From positions 1 through 25,075 of the IMG/VR virus record IMGVR_UViG_3300010399_000217: DNA of 25,075 nucleotides; one strand, given 5' to 3'. How positions within the stretch are numbered: the first letter of the stretch is position 1; each line of letters starts with the position of its first letter. Shown piece after piece: positions 3,361 through 16,895 of the stretch. The stretch is from a virus. Made by a program: the position numbers and the translations under genes. Under the pieces are notes generated by a model that did no database searches, was not told the origin of the DNA, and was given only the letters and a program-made list of their open reading frames with translations.

Positions 3361-5556
3361 ATGGCCCCCTTTAATCCAGCCATACAGCCTACAAATGACC
3401 CCAACTATGAGAACCGATCTAGAGCAATTGATGTTCCTGATAGTCTAAAACCTCGTGGTGTAGAAGAGAATAGAATTATGCCTGAAGGTCAGAAGATCGG
3501 GGATAAGTCCGCCGAGTACGAAGGCCAAGCTGCTGCGTATAATATGCAAGCAGAAGGTCATGCTATGAAATCCTACGGTGATCTATTCGCAGGCGTCGTT
3601 GGTATCGCTGACTTCATGGGCAAGGCTGGTGTCCAGATGGTCAAGAAAGATATCGAAGACCGTGTCTACGACGTAGCCAATAAAGAACGACAGAGTTATA
3701 CTGAATACCTCGAGACTGTAAAAGCAGGTAAAGGTGTCAAGAATCTCTTAGATGCTCGAGCTGAAGCTATAGATGATGAAACCCCCGGTGAAGTCGAAGG
3801 TCTACCCGATAGACTCGGCAGCCTCACTGGTGCAAGAGATGCTGGTAAGATTAGCAATAGTTATTACCAAGCTCGTCTACTGGCGGAAGCCAAGGACCTT
3901 AGGGCAAGGTACCCCGGCTTTCGTCAGGAGATTGACGACCAGTTCGCTAAGGTGACTGGTGTCAATCCTGCTAACGCTTACATTAACTCTCTCGTCGGAG
4001 ATATCAACCGAGCTGCGGCTGCTGCCAACAAAGGCCAAAGCAAGATTGAGAGTTTCATACTCCAGCGTCAGGGTTACCCTAATGCTCCTGATGTATACCA
4101 GAAGTTCAAGGCTGGTCAGATACAAGATAAAGACGTTCTTAACTGGGCTGCTCCTTATGAGCGCCAAGATCAAGAACTCAAGATGCGTGCTGCTAAGATT
4201 AACGATACCAAGCTCTCTCGTGGTGAAGTAGAATACCAAGCCTCCCGAGGTGCAGATGCTGCCTTCGGTATGGTCGTTGGTAGATCCGTAGACCAGATGC
4301 TTGGACGTATGGGTATTAACTCTGCTGAGGATGCAAGCAAGCTTGACCTTCAAGTCAAGGCTGGTGCTATCCCTGCTAATAGGTTCGCAGAACTCGGACA
4401 GGAGATCGCAGACCATCGTGCTCAGTTGAGAGTACAGATGAAGAAGGATGCTGACCAACACGGCATCACTAAGATCCTAGGTGCCGATGAAGTCAACAAG
4501 CGTATCGACGCAAGCCTTCAACAGCTAGAAACCCTTAACGATCGTGTCTACAACAAAGACTTCGGTGGTATCTACAGAACAGCTAAGGCTATTAAGTCTC
4601 AGACTGAAGATGATACTATGCAGCTCCTACAGAACTCCAAGGTCGGTCCTGCCATGAGGCAGATGATGGTCCTACGTGAGATCGGTGGTGAACAGTGGTT
4701 CCAGAAGTTCAACCTTGATCTTATTAAGTCTGGTCTTCCTCAACATTACTCTGCCTACGCAGAAAGGTGGATGTCGGAGATTGCGAGCCAGACCAACATG
4801 CGTACTACTGGTATGCCTACGACACTCAACGATATGTTTGATGAGTTCAAGGCTAAGGGTATGAATGACAACAAAGTCAACGCAACTATTACCAATATGA
4901 TCACTAAGATCTCTGACAAGGATACTCCAGACGAAGTTCGGTCTAACCTTGCCTTGGCTGCTTTCCATCCCAACAATCGTGGCTTTATCTCTAAGCTCAA
5001 CGTAGATGCTGTCGATCCTACCAATCCTAATCGTAAGATCCAAGGCCAGAATGCTGTCTTCCAGAAGTTTACTTCTCCAGAGATGACGGCTACTATTAAG
5101 AAGCTTGGTGAGACCAAACCAGAGATTTGGACTAACTACGTCAATTGGGCTAAGGAAACTCTCGGTACTGAACTCATCGGTAGAGAGGTCCAAGACCTTA
5201 AGAACATCCCTGAGAATGCCAACGTCAAGGTAGGTTGGGATGACAAGAATTCACGGTTTAAAGCTATTGACACTAGACCCGACAGTCTTAAGGAAGCTCA
5301 ACGTGGATACCACGTCTCTGCTGCTTCCGGTCAGTACTTCAAGCGTACCGAAGCTTCCCTCAATCGTATTAATTCAAATCTAGCTAACTACAAGAACATC
5401 GCTGAAGCCAGCGGTGCAGATGTCAATGCCTTCTTACTGAAGAGTATTGCTGACATCGGTGGACGAGAAGCTTTGACTAAGGTTGATGGTATTCCCTTCC
5501 AGATGCTACAGCAGATTGGTTTGATGAAACTTCGGAGTGGCGTAGGTAGTAAATGA
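3361..5556 (+). CDS. Second large helical internal virion protein
   Basis: 731 residues, starting at the ATG that directly follows the upstream TAA with GGAG 5 bases before that stop. The sequence is almost wholly helical, rich in Ala, Gln, Lys and Asp, with no transmembrane segment and no enzyme motif that I recognise. A heptad-like stretch around residues 340-400 could form coiled coils. By size, composition and place between a giant virion protein and a peptidase-bearing one it resembles the T7 gp15 class of ejected core proteins. That is inference from context; sequence similarity was not tested. The stop overlaps the next start as ATGA, so the three virion genes are probably translationally coupled. 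A tail-tube or scaffold-like role cannot be excluded. Confidence 0.65.
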   Translation: MAPFNPAIQPTNDPNYENRSRAIDVPDSLKPRGVEENRIMPEGQKIGDKSAEYEGQAAAYNMQAEGHAMKSYGDLFAGVVGIADFMGKAGVQMVKKDIEDRVYDVANKERQSYTEYLETVKAGKGVKNLLDARAEAIDDETPGEVEGLPDRLGSLTGARDAGKISNSYYQARLLAEAKDLRARYPGFRQEIDDQFAKVTGVNPANAYINSLVGDINRAAAAANKGQSKIESFILQRQGYPNAPDVYQKFKAGQIQDKDVLNWAAPYERQDQELKMRAAKINDTKLSRGEVEYQASRGADAAFGMVVGRSVDQMLGRMGINSAEDASKLDLQVKAGAIPANRFAELGQEIADHRAQLRVQMKKDADQHGITKILGADEVNKRIDASLQQLETLNDRVYNKDFGGIYRTAKAIKSQTEDDTMQLLQNSKVGPAMRQMMVLREIGGEQWFQKFNLDLIKSGLPQHYSAYAERWMSEIASQTNMRTTGMPTTLNDMFDEFKAKGMNDNKVNATITNMITKISDKDTPDEVRSNLALAAFHPNNRGFISKLNVDAVDPTNPNRKIQGQNAVFQKFTSPEMTATIKKLGETKPEIWTNYVNWAKETLGTELIGREVQDLKNIPENANVKVGWDDKNSRFKAIDTRPDSLKEAQRGYHVSAASGQYFKRTEASLNRINSNLANYKNIAEASGADVNAFLLKSIADIGGREALTKVDGIPFQMLQQIGLMKLRSGVGSK

Positions 5557-11903: not shown

Positions 11904-11967
11904 GGTGGGAGCTGACACGTAGCTCAGTAAGTTTTATCTACTTTGGCTACTTGTTTGCGCTCCCACC
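11904..11967 (-). promoter_or_regulatory. Long-range 9-bp stem in the leader of the membrane-protein gene
   Basis: GGTGGGAGC (11904-11912) and GCTCCCACC (11959-11967) are perfect complements. Inside them GTAGC/GCTAC (11919-11923, 11946-11950) and AGTA/TACT (11926-11929, 11939-11942) pair as well, giving a three-step rod. On the minus strand an extra G-U pair can extend it. It ends about 8 bases before the AAAAAGGAG site. It may be a processing site or translation control element. Confidence 0.55.
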
Positions 11968-11986
11968 CTAATAAGATTAAGGTGGA
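11961..11986 (-). promoter_or_regulatory. Competing hairpin at the end of the structured region
   Basis: On the minus strand TCCACCTTAAT pairs with ATTAGGGTGGGA with one bulged G and one G-U pair (11 pairs, 3-base loop). Its 3' arm is the same GGTGGGA strand that forms the 9-bp stem with 11904-11912, so the two structures exclude each other. The G-U pair exists only on the minus strand. Confidence 0.5.
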
Positions 11987-12218
11987 CGCTCGAACCGCGC
12001 GAGATATTTCAGAATTCGTGACACAGTGTTCATGACGCACATGGCGTGTTCCTCCTGCTAGAGTTACGTCTGTGGGTTAGGTGTGTCTGGTTCCTAAGCT
12101 CGTTCTTTCTACATGCTAGCACGCTAATCCGGCGCGCTCTTGTTGCGGGTTCGTGGACATTCATGCAAGGCGACTTACGTATAGAGGCTTTCCTTCGCAG
12201 ACCTCCTGCGCCATTTGT

Positions 12219-12246
12219 CTCAACTTCGGTCTCACCGCCTGTTGAG
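12219..12246 (-). other. Nested hairpin in the structured RNA
   Basis: CTCAAC (12219-12224) pairs with GTTGAG (12241-12246). Inside, CGGT (12227-12230) pairs with ACCG (12234-12237) over a CTC loop. Ten pairs in two helices separated by a 2/3 internal loop. Confidence 0.6.
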
Positions 12247-12267
12247 CGTATGCAAGTAATCCGTTTC

Positions 12268-12294
12268 AGAAGTGGGTCGTTAACCCTGCTTTCT
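12268..12294 (-). other. Hairpin with GGGT/ACCC tip, recurring motif
   Basis: GGGT (12274-12277) and ACCC (12283-12286) close a CGTTA loop, with AGAAG (12268-12272) pairing to CTTTCT (12289-12294) below. The tip recurs almost identically at 13671-13683, where the loop is CGTCA. Confidence 0.5.
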
Positions 12295-12637
12295 GTTTTG
12301 ATACCGACGTGAACGCTGTCTCACTGGATGTTCATAGAAGGCTCTCTTGACTACGCAATTCACCCACGTCCTCGCTCCCTACACGGGACCTGTTCACCAC
12401 AGGTTGACGGCTTTTGTCGTGATTGCTATCTAGCCTAATTGGGCTACATCACAGTAGTTCTTACTTCGGTTCCTTCCGATGTCGGAAGATTGACACCCAC
12501 CGATGGACTATCGGCAGTGCCCTTACCAATCTTTGATTGGCGTATTCATCCAACCAGTTTCTTTCTACTCGGTAGCTGTCCAACAACCAATAAGGTGACG
12601 TTCTGTTACGCGAAGGCTATACCTTTCGCTGCAGACC

Positions 12638-12676
12638 AATGCTCACGGTTGTCCAGCATTAGACCTAGTGAACCGT
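12638..12676 (-). other. H-type pseudoknot in the structured RNA
   Basis: AATGCT (12638-12643) pairs with AGCATT (12655-12660). The loop of that hairpin holds ACGGTT (12645-12650), which is perfectly complementary to AACCGT (12671-12676) beyond the stem. Two interleaved perfect 6-bp helices make a classic H-type pseudoknot. No protein-coding frame needs this arrangement. Confidence 0.6.
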
Positions 12677-12733
12677 CGGTCCTCCCTCAGAAGGAGGATA
12701 CGTAAAGGACTTGCTCTTGAGAGAGACTTACTC

Positions 12734-12762
12734 TGGAGGTGTGGTTAAGACCACGGGCTCCA
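12734..12762 (-). other. Two-level hairpin in the structured RNA
   Basis: TGGAG (12734-12738) with CTCCA (12758-12762) and GTGGT (12741-12745) with ACCAC (12750-12754) form ten pairs around a TAAG loop, separated by a small 2/3 internal loop. Confidence 0.6.
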
Positions 12763-12917
12763 CATTGCTGATGCATTTCGGCCATTCCTACTTCATACCG
12801 GGCTGTAGGCGACTCATACTAGGGCTGCGCTCGACACAGCATATTTCGGGTTGCACCCCTATGCACTACCACTGCGAACTCTAGCAATCCCTACGTCGTC
12901 AGGCGAGTTTCACCGCG

Positions 12918-12948
12918 TCGGCTCTTCGCCGAGTGGATTCGAACCACC
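12918..12948 (-). other. tRNA T-arm-like hairpin plus adjacent hairpin
   Basis: On the minus strand GGTGG-TTCGAAT-CCACT (12932-12948) reproduces a tRNA T arm: five stem pairs including a terminal G-U, a 7-base loop with TTCGA in the canonical place. It is followed directly by TCGGC/GCCGA (12918-12932) with a 5-base loop. No acceptor, D or anticodon arm can be drawn around it, so it is a T-loop motif inside a larger RNA and not a tRNA. Confidence 0.6.
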
Positions 12949-12961
12949 ACTGCCTGCCGTC

Positions 12962-13023
12962 CAACCTACTGCTCACAAAGTCTCCGCCCCGCGGAGGTGG
13001 GTCACGCTCCCACATGTCGGTTG
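12962..13023 (-). other. Closed multi-branch junction in the structured RNA
   Basis: CAACC (12962-12966) pairs with GGTTG (13019-13023) and encloses two directly adjacent hairpins: CTCCGC/GCGGAG with a 3-base loop (12982-12996) and GTGGG/CCCAC with a 7-base loop (12997-13013). The two inner helices abut without a spacer, as expected for coaxial stacking. Confidence 0.6.
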
Positions 13024-13330
13024 AAAAGATTGTCGCTAGCTTATGCTACCTAGTAACCCCGTGGCGTCACGGTTGACTATCGGCTACCCACTAAAGAGTG
13101 GACCGACGTCGAAGTCTGGCTTAGCATCCTTGATGACACTCTCCTTAGGAGATCAGGACTTACATGATGGTGTCTGCCATCCATACCTAGTACACACTAG
13201 GCTGTTGCCGTCGTCATCGGCTTCTCCGAAGCTAGGTTTTATATACCGGCTAATGAGACCGGTGTACTTACAACGACACATCCTCACTGCTATGTCTATT
13301 CGCTACCTGTGCAGTACCACCGTTTCGGCC

Positions 13331-13347
13331 GCACGTGTCGCACGTGC
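13331..13347 (-). other. Perfect 7-bp hairpin with 3-base loop
   Basis: GCACGTG (13331-13337) and CACGTGC (13341-13347) flank a TCG loop. It is one of the longest uninterrupted local stems in the structured region. Confidence 0.6.
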
Positions 13348-13663
13348 CTCCATGATTACGGGAGTGTCCCTGTCGGTCCTGCTAGATTACTTCGTCATCA
13401 ACGGAAGTAGCGAAGTCTCGCAAGTACTTTGCTGCCCGACGGATTAACGTGGCATGATCGGGACTAACTCCACGACATAGCAACAGACCACCACAAGGTG
13501 GGTGGGGTATCCTGCCAGCATCATCCCAGCAGGGTTCCGCTACGCATTTTCGCTACATTCACCCTAGACGTGGATCTCATTCCAAACCCGGCTACGGTCT
13601 CTTCCCGCCAGTTTAACCTGTGCGGTTTCTAACCCACTCTCCCCTTTGGACAGGGCAGGGCAA

Positions 13664-13719
13664 CATACTGGGGTCGTCAACCCATAGAGGCATGCTCAGA
13701 CGGTTTCCTCTTCAGTATG
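13664..13719 (-). other. Three-way junction in the structured RNA
   Basis: CATACTG (13664-13670) pairs with CAGTATG (13713-13719), seven perfect pairs. Between them GGGT/ACCC closes a 5-base loop (13671-13683), abutting the outer stem, and AGAGG (13686-13690) pairs with CCTCT (13707-13711). Together this is a complete three-helix junction. Confidence 0.65.
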
Positions 13720-13934
13720 AACCAAAATATGTGAGAGGCTTTACGAGCACCCTCTCTTGCCACAAGGGGACGTCCCAGTCGCGACTGGTGTGGGAGTATT
13801 ACACCGGGGACACTACTAATAATCCCATCATCGCCCTTACGGGGCGGGCTCTACTTGAGCTACGGTGCGTGCGGCCCACAAAGATTTTATCCTTGTTATC
13901 CGCAGTTGGCATGGGTTATAGATTAAATTAGTAA

Positions 13935-13989
13935 CTGACGCCGGGTCGGCCTGTGGTGACCATGTGGGGTTTGAACCGCCCGGCGTCAG
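13935..13989 (-). other. 11-bp stem with T-loop-like sequence near the 5' end of the structured RNA
   Basis: CTGACGCCGGG (13935-13945) and CCCGGCGTCAG (13979-13989) are perfect complements around 33 bases containing a GGTTCAAACC T-loop-like sequence (minus strand) and a TGG/CCA mini-hairpin. Acceptor-plus-T stems in a tRNA total 12 pairs, so this may mimic a tRNA minihelix recognised by tRNA-processing enzymes. It lacks room for D and anticodon arms. Confidence 0.55.
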
Positions 13990-13996
13990 CCATGTA

Positions 13997-14025
13997 CTAG
14001 AGCAGGAGTGCGGCCCTTGCTCTAG
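13997..14025 (-). other. Perfect 8-bp hairpin just after the SSB gene
   Basis: CTAGAGCA (13997-14004) pairs with TGCTCTAG (14018-14025) around 13 bases, starting 5 bases after the SSB stop codon. No T-tract follows, so it more likely marks the SSB mRNA 3' end or the processing point of the downstream RNA than a terminator. Confidence 0.55.
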
Positions 14026-14030
14026 CCATC

Positions 14031-14546
14031 TCAGAAGACACGCTCAGGCTGCGACGTAACTTCGTCTACCTTTGCTTTCTCTTCTTCGTTCTGGTAATCC
14101 GTTTGAGGATTAAAAGGAACTAAGTTATCAACACGAACACCCTCTAGTCGAGCAGCAACTGCTTTGCCACCTCCGGGTGTTGCATGAGGGTACACTTCAA
14201 GTACGAGGGAAAGATCACTGCCATTGCCAATAAGAACCCCGTCAGCAAGGGGAGTACCATCAGCCATAGCGACAGTGGGTGGAGCGAATATGAGGGTCTT
14301 GATTTCTCCATTCCGCAGCTTGACGTCCTTCTTGGGTGGACGCTTGAAGCGCATGTAGTATCCATCTTCATCCTTCATCATGGTATTCTTCAGACCCTTG
14401 CTCTGAAGTTCACGAAGAACTTCTAGGTCTTCAGGGATCGGGTAGAGTTCGGTTGACCAATCTCCAAACTTATTCAGTCGTTGGACGTGGGTCCATCTAC
14501 CTTTACCACGTACCGTTATCCTTGTAGTCTTATCGTAATTAGCCAT
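14031..14546 (-). CDS. Single-stranded DNA-binding protein
   Basis: 171 residues from ATG 14546; a start at 14561 (176 residues) is possible and neither has a perfect ribosome-binding site. The pattern GRWTHVQRLNKFGDWSTELYP, LKNTMMKDEDGYYMRFKRP, ADGVLIGNGSDLSLVLEVY and RLEGVRVDNLVPFNP is that of the T7-like phage SSB group, an OB-fold protein with an acidic C-terminal tail (here NEEEKAKVDEVTSQPE, ending in aromatic Phe as in T7 gp2.5). Such proteins coat template strands and coordinate polymerase with primase-helicase. It overlaps the upstream small gene by 8 bases and is the last gene before the 2 kb structured RNA. Confidence 0.8.
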   Translation of the reverse strand: MANYDKTTRITVRGKGRWTHVQRLNKFGDWSTELYPIPEDLEVLRELQSKGLKNTMMKDEDGYYMRFKRPPKKDVKLRNGEIKTLIFAPPTVAMADGTPLADGVLIGNGSDLSLVLEVYPHATPGGGKAVAARLEGVRVDNLVPFNPQTDYQNEEEKAKVDEVTSQPERVF

Positions 14547-14715
14547 TCTTATTAATCTCATCCACTTCTACGACTTCAATATCGAAGGCTTCATCATAAG
14601 TCTCACGAACATAGTCGTAGGCCATCTGCTCGGCTTCGTCTTTGGTCTCCGCTTGGAAGGTCATAGCACCGCCATGACGCAGGGAATAATCAAATTCAAC
14701 GTTCCAGTCTTTCAT
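14539..14715 (-). CDS. Small acidic hypothetical protein
   Basis: 58 residues from ATG 14715, with AAGGAAG 5 bases before it; an in-frame TTG at 14733 would lie upstream of that site and is less likely. Composition is acidic (ETYDEAFDIEVVEVDEINKNG) with an alternating beta/alpha look. The N-terminal half, MKDWNVEFDYSLRHGGAMTF, predicts strands. No family recognised. It sits between polymerase and SSB, coupled to both neighbours by overlaps. Confidence 0.75.
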   Translation of the reverse strand: MKDWNVEFDYSLRHGGAMTFQAETKDEAEQMAYDYVRETYDEAFDIEVVEVDEINKNG

Positions 14716-14716
14716 A

Positions 14717-14932
14717 TTATCTTCCTTTTTCAATACTGTCTTTCAGTAATTGTGCTCTTCGAGCTTGCTCGTACATCTCTGCAAATTTAATTTGAAACTG
14801 ATGTAGTTCTTCTTCTAACTTGAGCCAACGATTATAAAAGTCTTCATTGACTTCTACTTCTGTACCCCAAGTATCCATTTCAGTAACAAAGTAATACGGG
14901 TACCACTCATCTGCATCTATTCTTATTTTAAT
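14717..14932 (-). CDS. Small hypothetical protein with apparent AUU start codon
   Basis: 71 residues. The frame is closed upstream by a TAG inside the polymerase gene and contains no ATG, GTG or TTG before residue 19. An ATT at 14932 lies 8 bases after GGAG and overlaps the polymerase stop (ATTAA), an ideal position; the product then starts MKIRIDADEWYPYYFV, a natural-looking N-terminus. The rest is a charged helix, LKLEEELHQFQIKFAEMYEQ. AUU starts are known (infC for IF3, some phage genes) and usually give low or regulated expression. Alternatively translation begins at ATG 14878 (53 residues), which lacks a ribosome-binding site. Function unknown; the stop overlaps the leader of the next gene. 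Confidence 0.65.
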   Translation of the reverse strand: MKIRIDADEWYPYYFVTEMDTWGTEVEVNEDFYNRWLKLEEELHQFQIKFAEMYEQARRAQLLKDSIEKGR

Positions 14933-16895
14933 GTGTCTTACTCCAGTTAGTAGCTATTGTATAATCTTCATCTTCGTCGTTCCAGTATGAACCAGCCATA
15001 GGACAATTCAAGTGTAATTCTTCTCCGGCCCACTTCAATGCATCGCATTGTAGTTGGGCTACCTTCAAAGCAATCGTAATATTATTTGGTGTCTCAGTCT
15101 GCCATTCATCGTGAACCAGATTGACGAGAAAGCTGTCGTAGGCGGGCAACTCAGGCGCGAATTTAATTGTCGCCTTCGCCATAACAACCTTCTCGCCATT
15201 CTGTAGAGCACCGGACATCCAAAGATGTTTACGGGCTCCTACGGTATCCCCGGGTATACGAACTTTACGGCCATCGAGACCAGTGAGGTAGCCCCTAGTT
15301 GCATCACGAGGAATAATATCCTCATGTAGTTCGGCTAACCCGGGGTATTTTTCAATCAATGCATCAATAGCTTCTTTGGCTTCTTCGACTGTACAACCCA
15401 TGATCTCGGCGATCTTACTAGGACCGCCGCCGAAGAACATCGCGTATAACGAATGCTTTGCTGCATTCCTTGTCTTACAGTACTCACCGAAGTAAGTCTT
15501 GTTGAGGGAATGAGGATCTGTGCCTTCGCTTTTCTTACCGTTGACTATTGCATATGTGAGAGTTGGGTCGTTGATAAGATGTGCAAAGACGCGTAATTGT
15601 ATAGCTTCTGCATCGACGCCTACGAGTAGACGTCCTTTAGGAGCTTGCCATAGTGATCGTAGTTCTTTTCCGTACAGACTAGGCTTGCCATCGGAAACCC
15701 TGACTGCGTTAGGTATGTTTGCAGTATTTGGGTTCTGGTGAGCCATCCGGTGGGTCCACGCACCAATAGCGTAGAACTTCCCGTGTATCCGTTGATCGGG
15801 AGTAACAAGGTTGAGCCACTCGGTAAGAGTTCGTCTTCGACTTTCCAGCAGAATTCGCTTTGCCAGAAGTCGGGAAGCCAGAGGGGCGGAGGTGGGGAGG
15901 GTATCAAGATTAGCTTCAGTGACTTTCCATCCTGTTATTCTTAATTCTTGTAAACGAGTATATAGTTCTTTGAAGCTTGTGTCAAGTGCATCATCTCGAT
16001 GCCGGTACTTCAATTTATTGTATTCTCGCTCTACGTCCTTATGAGTTTCGGTTTTCTCTACAGGTCGCCAGCCAGCTTCGTTAAGAACACTGATAATCTG
16101 TGAATGGCTGCTAGGATTGAAAGTCCTCCAAGTACAATAGCTGAAAGGAGCAGCGACAGTGAACTCAGGAATGCTTTCGCGAAGCGCCTTAGGTATGGAA
16201 GTAAGACTGATAGTACCATGTTTCGTCTCCTTCGGAGTGATCTCACGTATGAGTTTCAGTCTCGGGGGAAACGCATCAAGTATTTGTTCGTCTAAGTCTC
16301 TAAGCTCTTTTGTAACTCTTTCAAGTAAGCCTTCCGCCTTCTTAGTATTGAAGCTGAAGCCACGGTCATGGAGCTGATTAGCAACCAACTGGAAGCGATG
16401 CTCCAAGTCAATGCAGCTTGCATTGTCTGGGTTATGAATAAATTTATGGTACTTACTGTAAATGCGGAGGCAGATATCCACATCCCTGATACAATAAGTT
16501 TCGAGATCATCTGAGTATTTACTAAAGTCATAATGTTTTATCTTTTCAAATCCGAATTCAAGTCCGTAGTCTGCAATAGAGTGTCCTTTACGGGGATAGT
16601 CGGCGAGTTTACTGATTACAAGGGTGTCAGTAGATATACTAGCGATATCTTCGTGGCTGCAGCTAAGCAAATCAACAAGGACAGGCCAATCGTACCCAAG
16701 GAAATTATGACCGATAAACCTAGTAACGTGTACAAGAAAATCTCTAAAGCGTCGTAATTCATTTTCATCTTCTGTTAAATTCCTAAATATATATAATTCA
16801 TTTGTATCTATGTCACGGCAGGCTACAACCCATAGCTTAGTGGGCTTTACTAGACTGTTCGTCTCTGTGTCTATTACTATTCTCAAGTTGCTCAA
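14928..16895 (-). CDS. Family A DNA polymerase with 3'-5' exonuclease domain
   Basis: 655 residues. Exonuclease motifs: D9-T-E11 (Exo I), GHNFLGYD 63-70 (Exo II) and YCIRD 134-138 (Exo III). Polymerase motif A is GVDAEAIQLR (D428), motif B RNAAKHSLYAMFFGG (K480, Tyr484 at the position that discriminates dideoxynucleotides) and motif C VHDE 594-597, so both activities look intact. It is slightly shorter than T7 polymerase (704 residues), and I see no clear thioredoxin-binding insertion. The only possible starts are TTG codons: 16895, directly after an in-frame TGA, or 16886, which gives MRIVIDTET. Neither has a strong ribosome-binding site; overlap with the upstream small gene suggests coupling. 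It replicates the phage genome with the primase-helicase. Confidence 0.95.
   Translation of the reverse strand: MSNLRIVIDTETNSLVKPTKLWVVACRDIDTNELYIFRNLTEDENELRRFRDFLVHVTRFIGHNFLGYDWPVLVDLLSCSHEDIASISTDTLVISKLADYPRKGHSIADYGLEFGFEKIKHYDFSKYSDDLETYCIRDVDICLRIYSKYHKFIHNPDNASCIDLEHRFQLVANQLHDRGFSFNTKKAEGLLERVTKELRDLDEQILDAFPPRLKLIREITPKETKHGTISLTSIPKALRESIPEFTVAAPFSYCTWRTFNPSSHSQIISVLNEAGWRPVEKTETHKDVEREYNKLKYRHRDDALDTSFKELYTRLQELRITGWKVTEANLDTLPTSAPLASRLLAKRILLESRRRTLTEWLNLVTPDQRIHGKFYAIGAWTHRMAHQNPNTANIPNAVRVSDGKPSLYGKELRSLWQAPKGRLLVGVDAEAIQLRVFAHLINDPTLTYAIVNGKKSEGTDPHSLNKTYFGEYCKTRNAAKHSLYAMFFGGGPSKIAEIMGCTVEEAKEAIDALIEKYPGLAELHEDIIPRDATRGYLTGLDGRKVRIPGDTVGARKHLWMSGALQNGEKVVMAKATIKFAPELPAYDSFLVNLVHDEWQTETPNNITIALKVAQLQCDALKWAGEELHLNCPMAGSYWNDEDEDYTIATNWSKTH

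Follow-up and report, generated by a model that had tools for sequence, protein, structure and literature searches.

An apparent AUU start codon overlapping the stop codon of a phage DNA polymerase gene

Genes that start at AUU have been described in Escherichia coli, namely infC (named as such in a reference title of PMC2268962) and pcnB, the second chromosomal case (a reference title of PMC13009471), and in Staphylococcus aureus, where the 61-residue protein of cvfC1 starts at AUU according to the part of PMC13009471 drawn on here. The same part of that paper puts the yield of non-canonical starts in S. aureus at ∼10% of the AUG signal, and the part of PMC2268962 used here reports that re-initiation is inefficient without a Shine-Dalgarno (SD) sequence and that excess IF3 inhibits both non-canonical starts and SD-less re-initiation. 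Eukaryotic re-initiation, the subject of the consulted part of PMC4648390, has little bearing on the gene described below. For phages, ten AUU-start genes are claimed for Salmonella phage f18SE in the consulted part of PMC4599075. We set this claim aside, as AUU opens none of the 52 genes in the record of that phage (45 ATG, 5 GTG, and 2 TTG, with an origin-spanning gene left out). The record examined is presumably the one that the paper describes. Our search of the literature on phage AUU or ATT starts, with subscription papers mostly outside its scope, found no AUU gene overlapping a polymerase stop codon.

The 71-codon frame and its protein family

The DNA analyzed here, called the window, is a virus record of 25,075 bases from what is presumably a T7-like phage. 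Its DNA polymerase has its best annotated-phage matches in Lentibacter and Roseobacter phages, at ∼32 to 38% identity, and has relatives at 73 loci in viral contigs, with best-segment identities of 47 to 67%. The polymerase C terminus is a His followed by the stop codon in all 70 readable junctions, which are those of the window and of 69 relatives; in the remaining 4 of the 73 the sequence stops short of the polymerase end. In the polymerase genes of L068, L069, L070, and L072 the RRTLTEW and GAW(T/S)xRMAHQ motifs are separated by an unbroken in-frame insert some 100 residues long or longer.

Elsewhere in the window, positions 11930 to 14030 (∼2.1 kb) lack long open reading frames on the minus strand, and those on the plus strand are all short. 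Colinear blocks of this region are kept in L001 (8205 to 9798) and L002 (7714 to 9237) with 70 to 94% identity, and in a three-sequence alignment of one stretch 10 of 47 predicted pairs are maintained by changes in both partners. Among 77 sources, only the window, L001, and L002 gave convincing matches to a covariance model built from the core (13557 to 13722, minus strand), with L048 and L050 at an E value of 0.87, and the region gave no Rfam match at the gathering score and no tRNA. It has the appearance of a large structured phage RNA not described before.

On the minus strand the polymerase gene ends in AAC TGG AGT AAG ACA CAT TAA (Asn-Trp-Ser-Lys-Thr-His-stop), and from this junction the +1 frame reads ATT AAA ATA AGA ATA GAT GCA GAT GAG TGG (Table 1). 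The original prediction had placed the start of this frame at the ATT, 8 bases after GGAG and overlapping the polymerase stop as ATTAA, with no ATG, GTG, or TTG between the upstream TAG and codon 19, and in all of this, coordinates included, it was correct. The ATG at 14878 is the sole canonical start ahead of codon 53, and the upstream TAG means that no start codon more than 7 codons before the ATT is possible in the window. The 8-nt spacing from GGAG to ATT is plausible for an SD sequence, as gene 17924 of the same window also has GGAG at 8 nt. Both marks of a coupled gene pair, a start that overlaps the upstream stop and an SD sequence inside the upstream gene, are found in the ATTAA/GGAG arrangement, and RNA folding near the ATT gave no hairpin signal (z = 0.06). 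An open reading frame search using ATG, GTG, and TTG omits the gene, and a stop-to-stop search lists it. A start-less frame need not be improbable by itself; the weight for the ATT start comes from a recognizable protein whose homologues mostly place a Met at the ATT codon.

Table 1. Positions in the window of the 71-codon gene, its proposed start, and neighboring features
Feature	Position	Strand	Basis
71-codon gene, DEWYP small-protein family, ATT to TAA	14717..14932	-	translation; profile built without the window; alignments A3 and A4
Proposed start codon ATT (AUU)	14930..14932	-	8 of 13 distinct homologues have ATG at this codon
Probable Shine-Dalgarno core GGAG, within the polymerase Trp-Ser codons (TGG AGT)	14941..14944	-	sequence; spacing and pairing; Ser-codon association in relatives
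Polymerase stop TAA, sharing T14930 with the ATT codon (ATTAA)	14928..14930	-	sequence
In-frame TAG, barring starts farther upstream	14954..14956	-	sequence
ATG at codon 19, the first canonical start in the frame; considered not to be the start used	14876..14878	-	
Stop codon TAA of the 71-codon gene	14717..14719	-	
Family A DNA polymerase (655 aa), encoded upstream	14928..16895	-	Pfam PF00476, E = 2.3e-30
Next gene after the 71-codon gene, ATG at 14715	14539..14715	-	

The impression that the frame encodes a natural-looking protein was borne out by a profile of 12 homologues built without the window, which matched it with an E value of 2.9e-16 over model positions 1 to 61 of 63, in a search space of the window's 445 stop-to-stop frames of at least 30 codons each. 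By this sequence evidence the 71-codon frame is a real gene. The family, as aligned in A3 and A4, consists of small proteins with DEWYP near the N terminus and a helical tail in which one Gln is invariant, and it occurs in a Nocardioides prophage region and in viral contigs. It was assembled by scans with the protein, degenerate DxDEWYP patterns, and alignments, and the conservation of DEWYP is partly built in, since patterns containing it found most members; a member found by profile, in L031, has DELYP. Across the phylum of the Nocardioides genome the family appeared in 1 of 396, the one already known, and a four-row profile (A2) found members in none of 33 records of relatives. A 13-row profile later recovered the member in L031, a record outside those 33. 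That member (L031:4177-4359, with an ATG start) is encoded immediately ahead of the polymerase gene in a polymerase relative and overlaps the beginning of the polymerase match, at 4350, so the family is present on either side of this polymerase. At L095:849-1622 the DEWYP domain is the N-terminal part of a protein exceeding 250 residues, where most homologues are free-standing small proteins.

Pfam and PHROGs gave no matches for the nine members of A3, and NCBIfam gave none for the window protein. An AlphaFold2 model of the latter (mean pLDDT of 94.4) predicts short strands at residues 2 to 7, 14 to 17, and 24 to 27 and a long helix at residues 30 to 70. The top match in a fold search was only an uncharacterized 62-residue phage protein (E = 0.077; TM scores of 0.63 and 0.70), and the PDB held nothing credible for the window protein by fold or by sequence.

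As to whether relatives have ATG where the window has ATT, 8 of the 13 distinct homologues do, at precisely the codon that aligns (L074, L078, L081, L094, L100, L104, L109, and L031), with the proviso that L074, L094, L100, and L104 are among the homologues with further in-frame starts upstream and that the aligned ATG is not necessarily the start they use. Two homologues start one codon before that position (L108 with ATG, L098 with GTG), and three start 4 to 9 codons before it (L097, L093, and L095). Copies that were identical or on the same contig had been merged (L074 with L080, L084, and L086; L078 with L082; L081 with L083; L100 with L103; L098 with L101, L106, and L107; L093 with L105; L095 with L102). 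Left out of the count were L077 and L079, longer proteins with an internal IDADEWYP; L092, L096, and L099, non-family by eye; L085, which matches over 14 residues in a Bacteroidales contig and has ATC, not a canonical start, at the aligned codon; and H1/L076 (E = 7) and H42 (E = 0.7). Position 1 of the profile built without the window aligns to the ATT codon, and the first predicted strand begins at residue 2 counted from it. The gene thus has AUU, and neither AUG, GUG, nor UUG, at an N terminus set by homology; it is like the other family members in motif, profile, and start position, but all 13 of those found have ATG or GTG. Taken together, homology, ribosome-site geometry, and the predicted fold leave the ATT start well supported, as far as sequence and model can speak.

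Probable ribosome sites and start codons at comparable junctions

The GGAG of the window is written by the Trp-Ser codons of the polymerase, and relatives differ in how they encode this Ser. Where the Ser after the conserved Trp is AGY, which makes GGAG, a TTG-start gene in a TTGA overlap follows in 15 of 18 nonduplicate relatives, the exceptions being L006 and L032, with an ATG overlapping TGA, and L016, with neither arrangement. Where it is TCN, such a gene follows in none of 8, a difference (Fisher, 1.1e-4) obtained with only near-duplicates removed and kinship uncorrected. A TTGA-overlap frame is also present in 2 of 45 nonduplicate relatives without GGAG (L046 and L073), and GGAG is therefore not indispensable. 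The comparison suggests that the GGAG in the Trp-Ser codons is probably a used ribosome site.

The TTGA-overlap genes behind PolA (L003, L044, L005, L007, and others) share the site and the Trp-Ser GGAG with the window gene but start at TTG in the +2 frame, whereas the window gene has AUU in the +1 frame. No TTG overlaps a TGA at the polymerase junction of the window, which has TAA and a +2 frame open for 1 codon. No TTGA-overlap gene gave a significant match to the DEWYP profile; L030 may be a remote relative of the family (E = 0.039; 14.0 bits, with 1000 shuffles giving no more than 8.4).

No other locus with a DEWYP gene directly behind a polymerase was found. At eight loci (L060, L063, L015, L012, L013, L055, L054, and L026, with L012 and L013 identical) a +1 frame runs through a CATTRA junction with no start right at the junction. 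We rejected these as further AUU cases, since an ATG found in frame between −47 and −53 at every one of them, preceded by GGGAG or GGAGAG in seven of the eight (L012 aside), makes the ATT unnecessary. Also rejected was L043, with an ATG at +70, where its L045 homologue starts to match as well. L041, with a 34-codon +1 frame, TTG at −26, and GTG at +40, was counted neither way.

In a pattern scan, at least 119 loci had a GGAG junction with CATTAR, with duplicates kept and kinship uncorrected; 111 junctions fall within a frame of 100 codons or more and were assumed to be polymerase-like, and 8 were set aside. Among the matches listed, the +1 frame extends for at least 37 codons in 77 of the 111, and 73 of these 77 have GTG at −11, all but L135, L156, L165, and L192. 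Within the same matches an SD-like motif stands at −27 to −16 in 68 of the 73 GTG genes, against 0 of 16 loci of the TAATG group, in which the following gene begins at TAATG. GTG at −11 is likely the start of the +1 genes in this group, and the ATT is thus no general solution. At many of these loci (L116 to L234) the next gene apparently starts with GTG within the last polymerase codons, with the SD-like motif also in the polymerase. In the window the corresponding codon is GTA, with no SD-like motif and with an in-frame TAG at −26.

Of the four long +1 frames lacking this GTG, L156 and L165 were rejected as AUU cases for having an upstream ATG, and L192 was not counted, its 40-codon frame having just 28 codons in the look-alike L123. 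L135 has the same geometry as the window and no canonical start before +49, with SRLIIISFLILTTGC directly after the ATT, which by eye is a lipoprotein-like N terminus. Among the matches listed, it alone has a good-looking +1 protein without a canonical start. This protein had no homologues in phage and plasmid collections at E limits of 0.01 and 1 and no family matches, and L135 is a possible candidate for a second AUU case.

Proposed AUU initiation and its alternatives

The strongest rival to AUU initiation is a one-base indel, introduced in sequencing or assembly, that hides a true junction of the TTGA type with an ordinary TTG start and the same protein frame. All 19 other AGY junctions, duplicates included, have TGA, and TAA is found only in the window (n = 20); the TTG of TTGA is the usual start at such junctions, and a one-base length change, natural or artefactual, would account for the missing standard start. 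Both frames stay intact after such a change, so homology is blind to it. However, none of the window genes that match the contigs of two relatives is split between frames, and L135 independently has the same start-less geometry. We consider the indel unlikely, if still to be reckoned with. The original prediction had named a sequencing error restoring a standard start as one way in which it could fail; the indel is what is left of that concern, a substitution being unlikely because it would destroy the polymerase stop. Its other way to fail, initiation at the internal ATG, we regard as quite improbable as the only site of translation, and likewise that the frame is not translated at all. This ATG is the one canonical start available before codon 53, and the low G+C content of the gene suggests a recent, possibly decaying arrival, but a start there would delete the DEWYP motif and two of the three strands (residues 2 to 7 and 14 to 17), and the frame is intact for 71 codons with a full-length family score.

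Near-cognate codons other than AUU are present in the frame (AUA at codons 3 and 5, GUA three codons before the ATT, and CUA farther up), and the phages of the pattern scan use GTG for their +1 genes at the position of that GUA. In the window, however, the GUA overlaps GGAG and lacks an upstream SD-like motif of the kind that 68 of the 73 GTG genes among the matches listed have, and neither AUA codon, at 14 and 20 nt from GGAG, aligns with the Met of the homologues, which makes a start at any of these codons very improbable. We would expect even less a +1 ribosomal frameshift at the polymerase stop, giving a fusion to the polymerase: the frame is indeed +1 to the polymerase with the stop at the junction, but re-pairing of the P-site tRNA from CAU to AUU would be poor, the homologues are mostly free-standing small genes, and the His-stop end of the polymerase is invariant.

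Initiation at AUU is, in our assessment, quite likely the best explanation of the 71-codon gene. Because the polymerase stop begins with the third base of the ATT, a substitution to ATG would abolish that stop, and with a polymerase ending in CAU-UAA a +1-frame start that overlaps the stop can only be AUU. Ribosomes ending the polymerase, or 30S subunits bound at GGAG in its last codons, would set initiator fMet-tRNA on the AUU at 14932, and after this AUU overlapping UAA the ribosome would continue in the +1 frame and translate the 71-residue protein. The low expression and the coupling to polymerase translation that the original prediction had suggested are plausible in light of the published work, and the yield of such coupled initiation would probably be low. 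The gene also looks recently acquired. Its G+C content is 0.34, against 0.44 to 0.49 in seven neighboring genes, with third-position values of 0.26 against 0.42 to 0.54, and in the close relative L001 the gene is missing, the polymerase being followed directly by the counterpart of the next gene. Low G+C and absence from L001 point to a recent arrival, and the insertion would have been at the place where related phages attach other small genes to the same GGAG.

A broader picture can be offered tentatively, with more doubt than confidence. The end of this polymerase group (Asn-Trp-x-x-Thr/Ile-His-stop in nearly all) may be a docking site for cargo genes, where the synonymous choice of the last codons makes the ribosome site and the frame sets the start codon: UUG in UUGA, AUG in UGAUG or UAAUG, GUG at −11, and AUU if a +1 gene is flush with the stop, as in the window and perhaps in L135.

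Comparison with known AUU-start and coupled genes

AUU is outside the start set of standard open reading frame searches, and annotation would tend to miss or truncate genes that begin with it. Here the start is fixed to the codon by homology, and the shared base explains why simple substitution by a standard start was not possible, making this junction a clean test case for the extent to which an overlapping replication gene can impose a non-standard start. The association with Ser codons further suggests how the ribosome site of a next gene is written into a conserved protein end.

Like TAATG-type coupled phage genes and the geneV-geneVII re-initiation of M13, the 71-codon gene has a start that overlaps or abuts the upstream stop; it differs in having AUU in place of AUG, GUG, or UUG, and its coupling is putative. 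With infC and pcnB of E. coli and cvfC1 of S. aureus it shares, as far as the parts of the sources used here describe them, an AUU start with an SD sequence upstream, and with cvfC1 also its small size. Unlike these three it is a phage gene, its AUU overlaps the stop codon of the upstream gene, no logic of IF3 autoregulation is visible, and its initiation at AUU is predicted from the nucleotide sequence. The apparent AUU gene behind the polymerase is a new example of a known rare start type, in an overlap without room for a standard start, and not a new principle.
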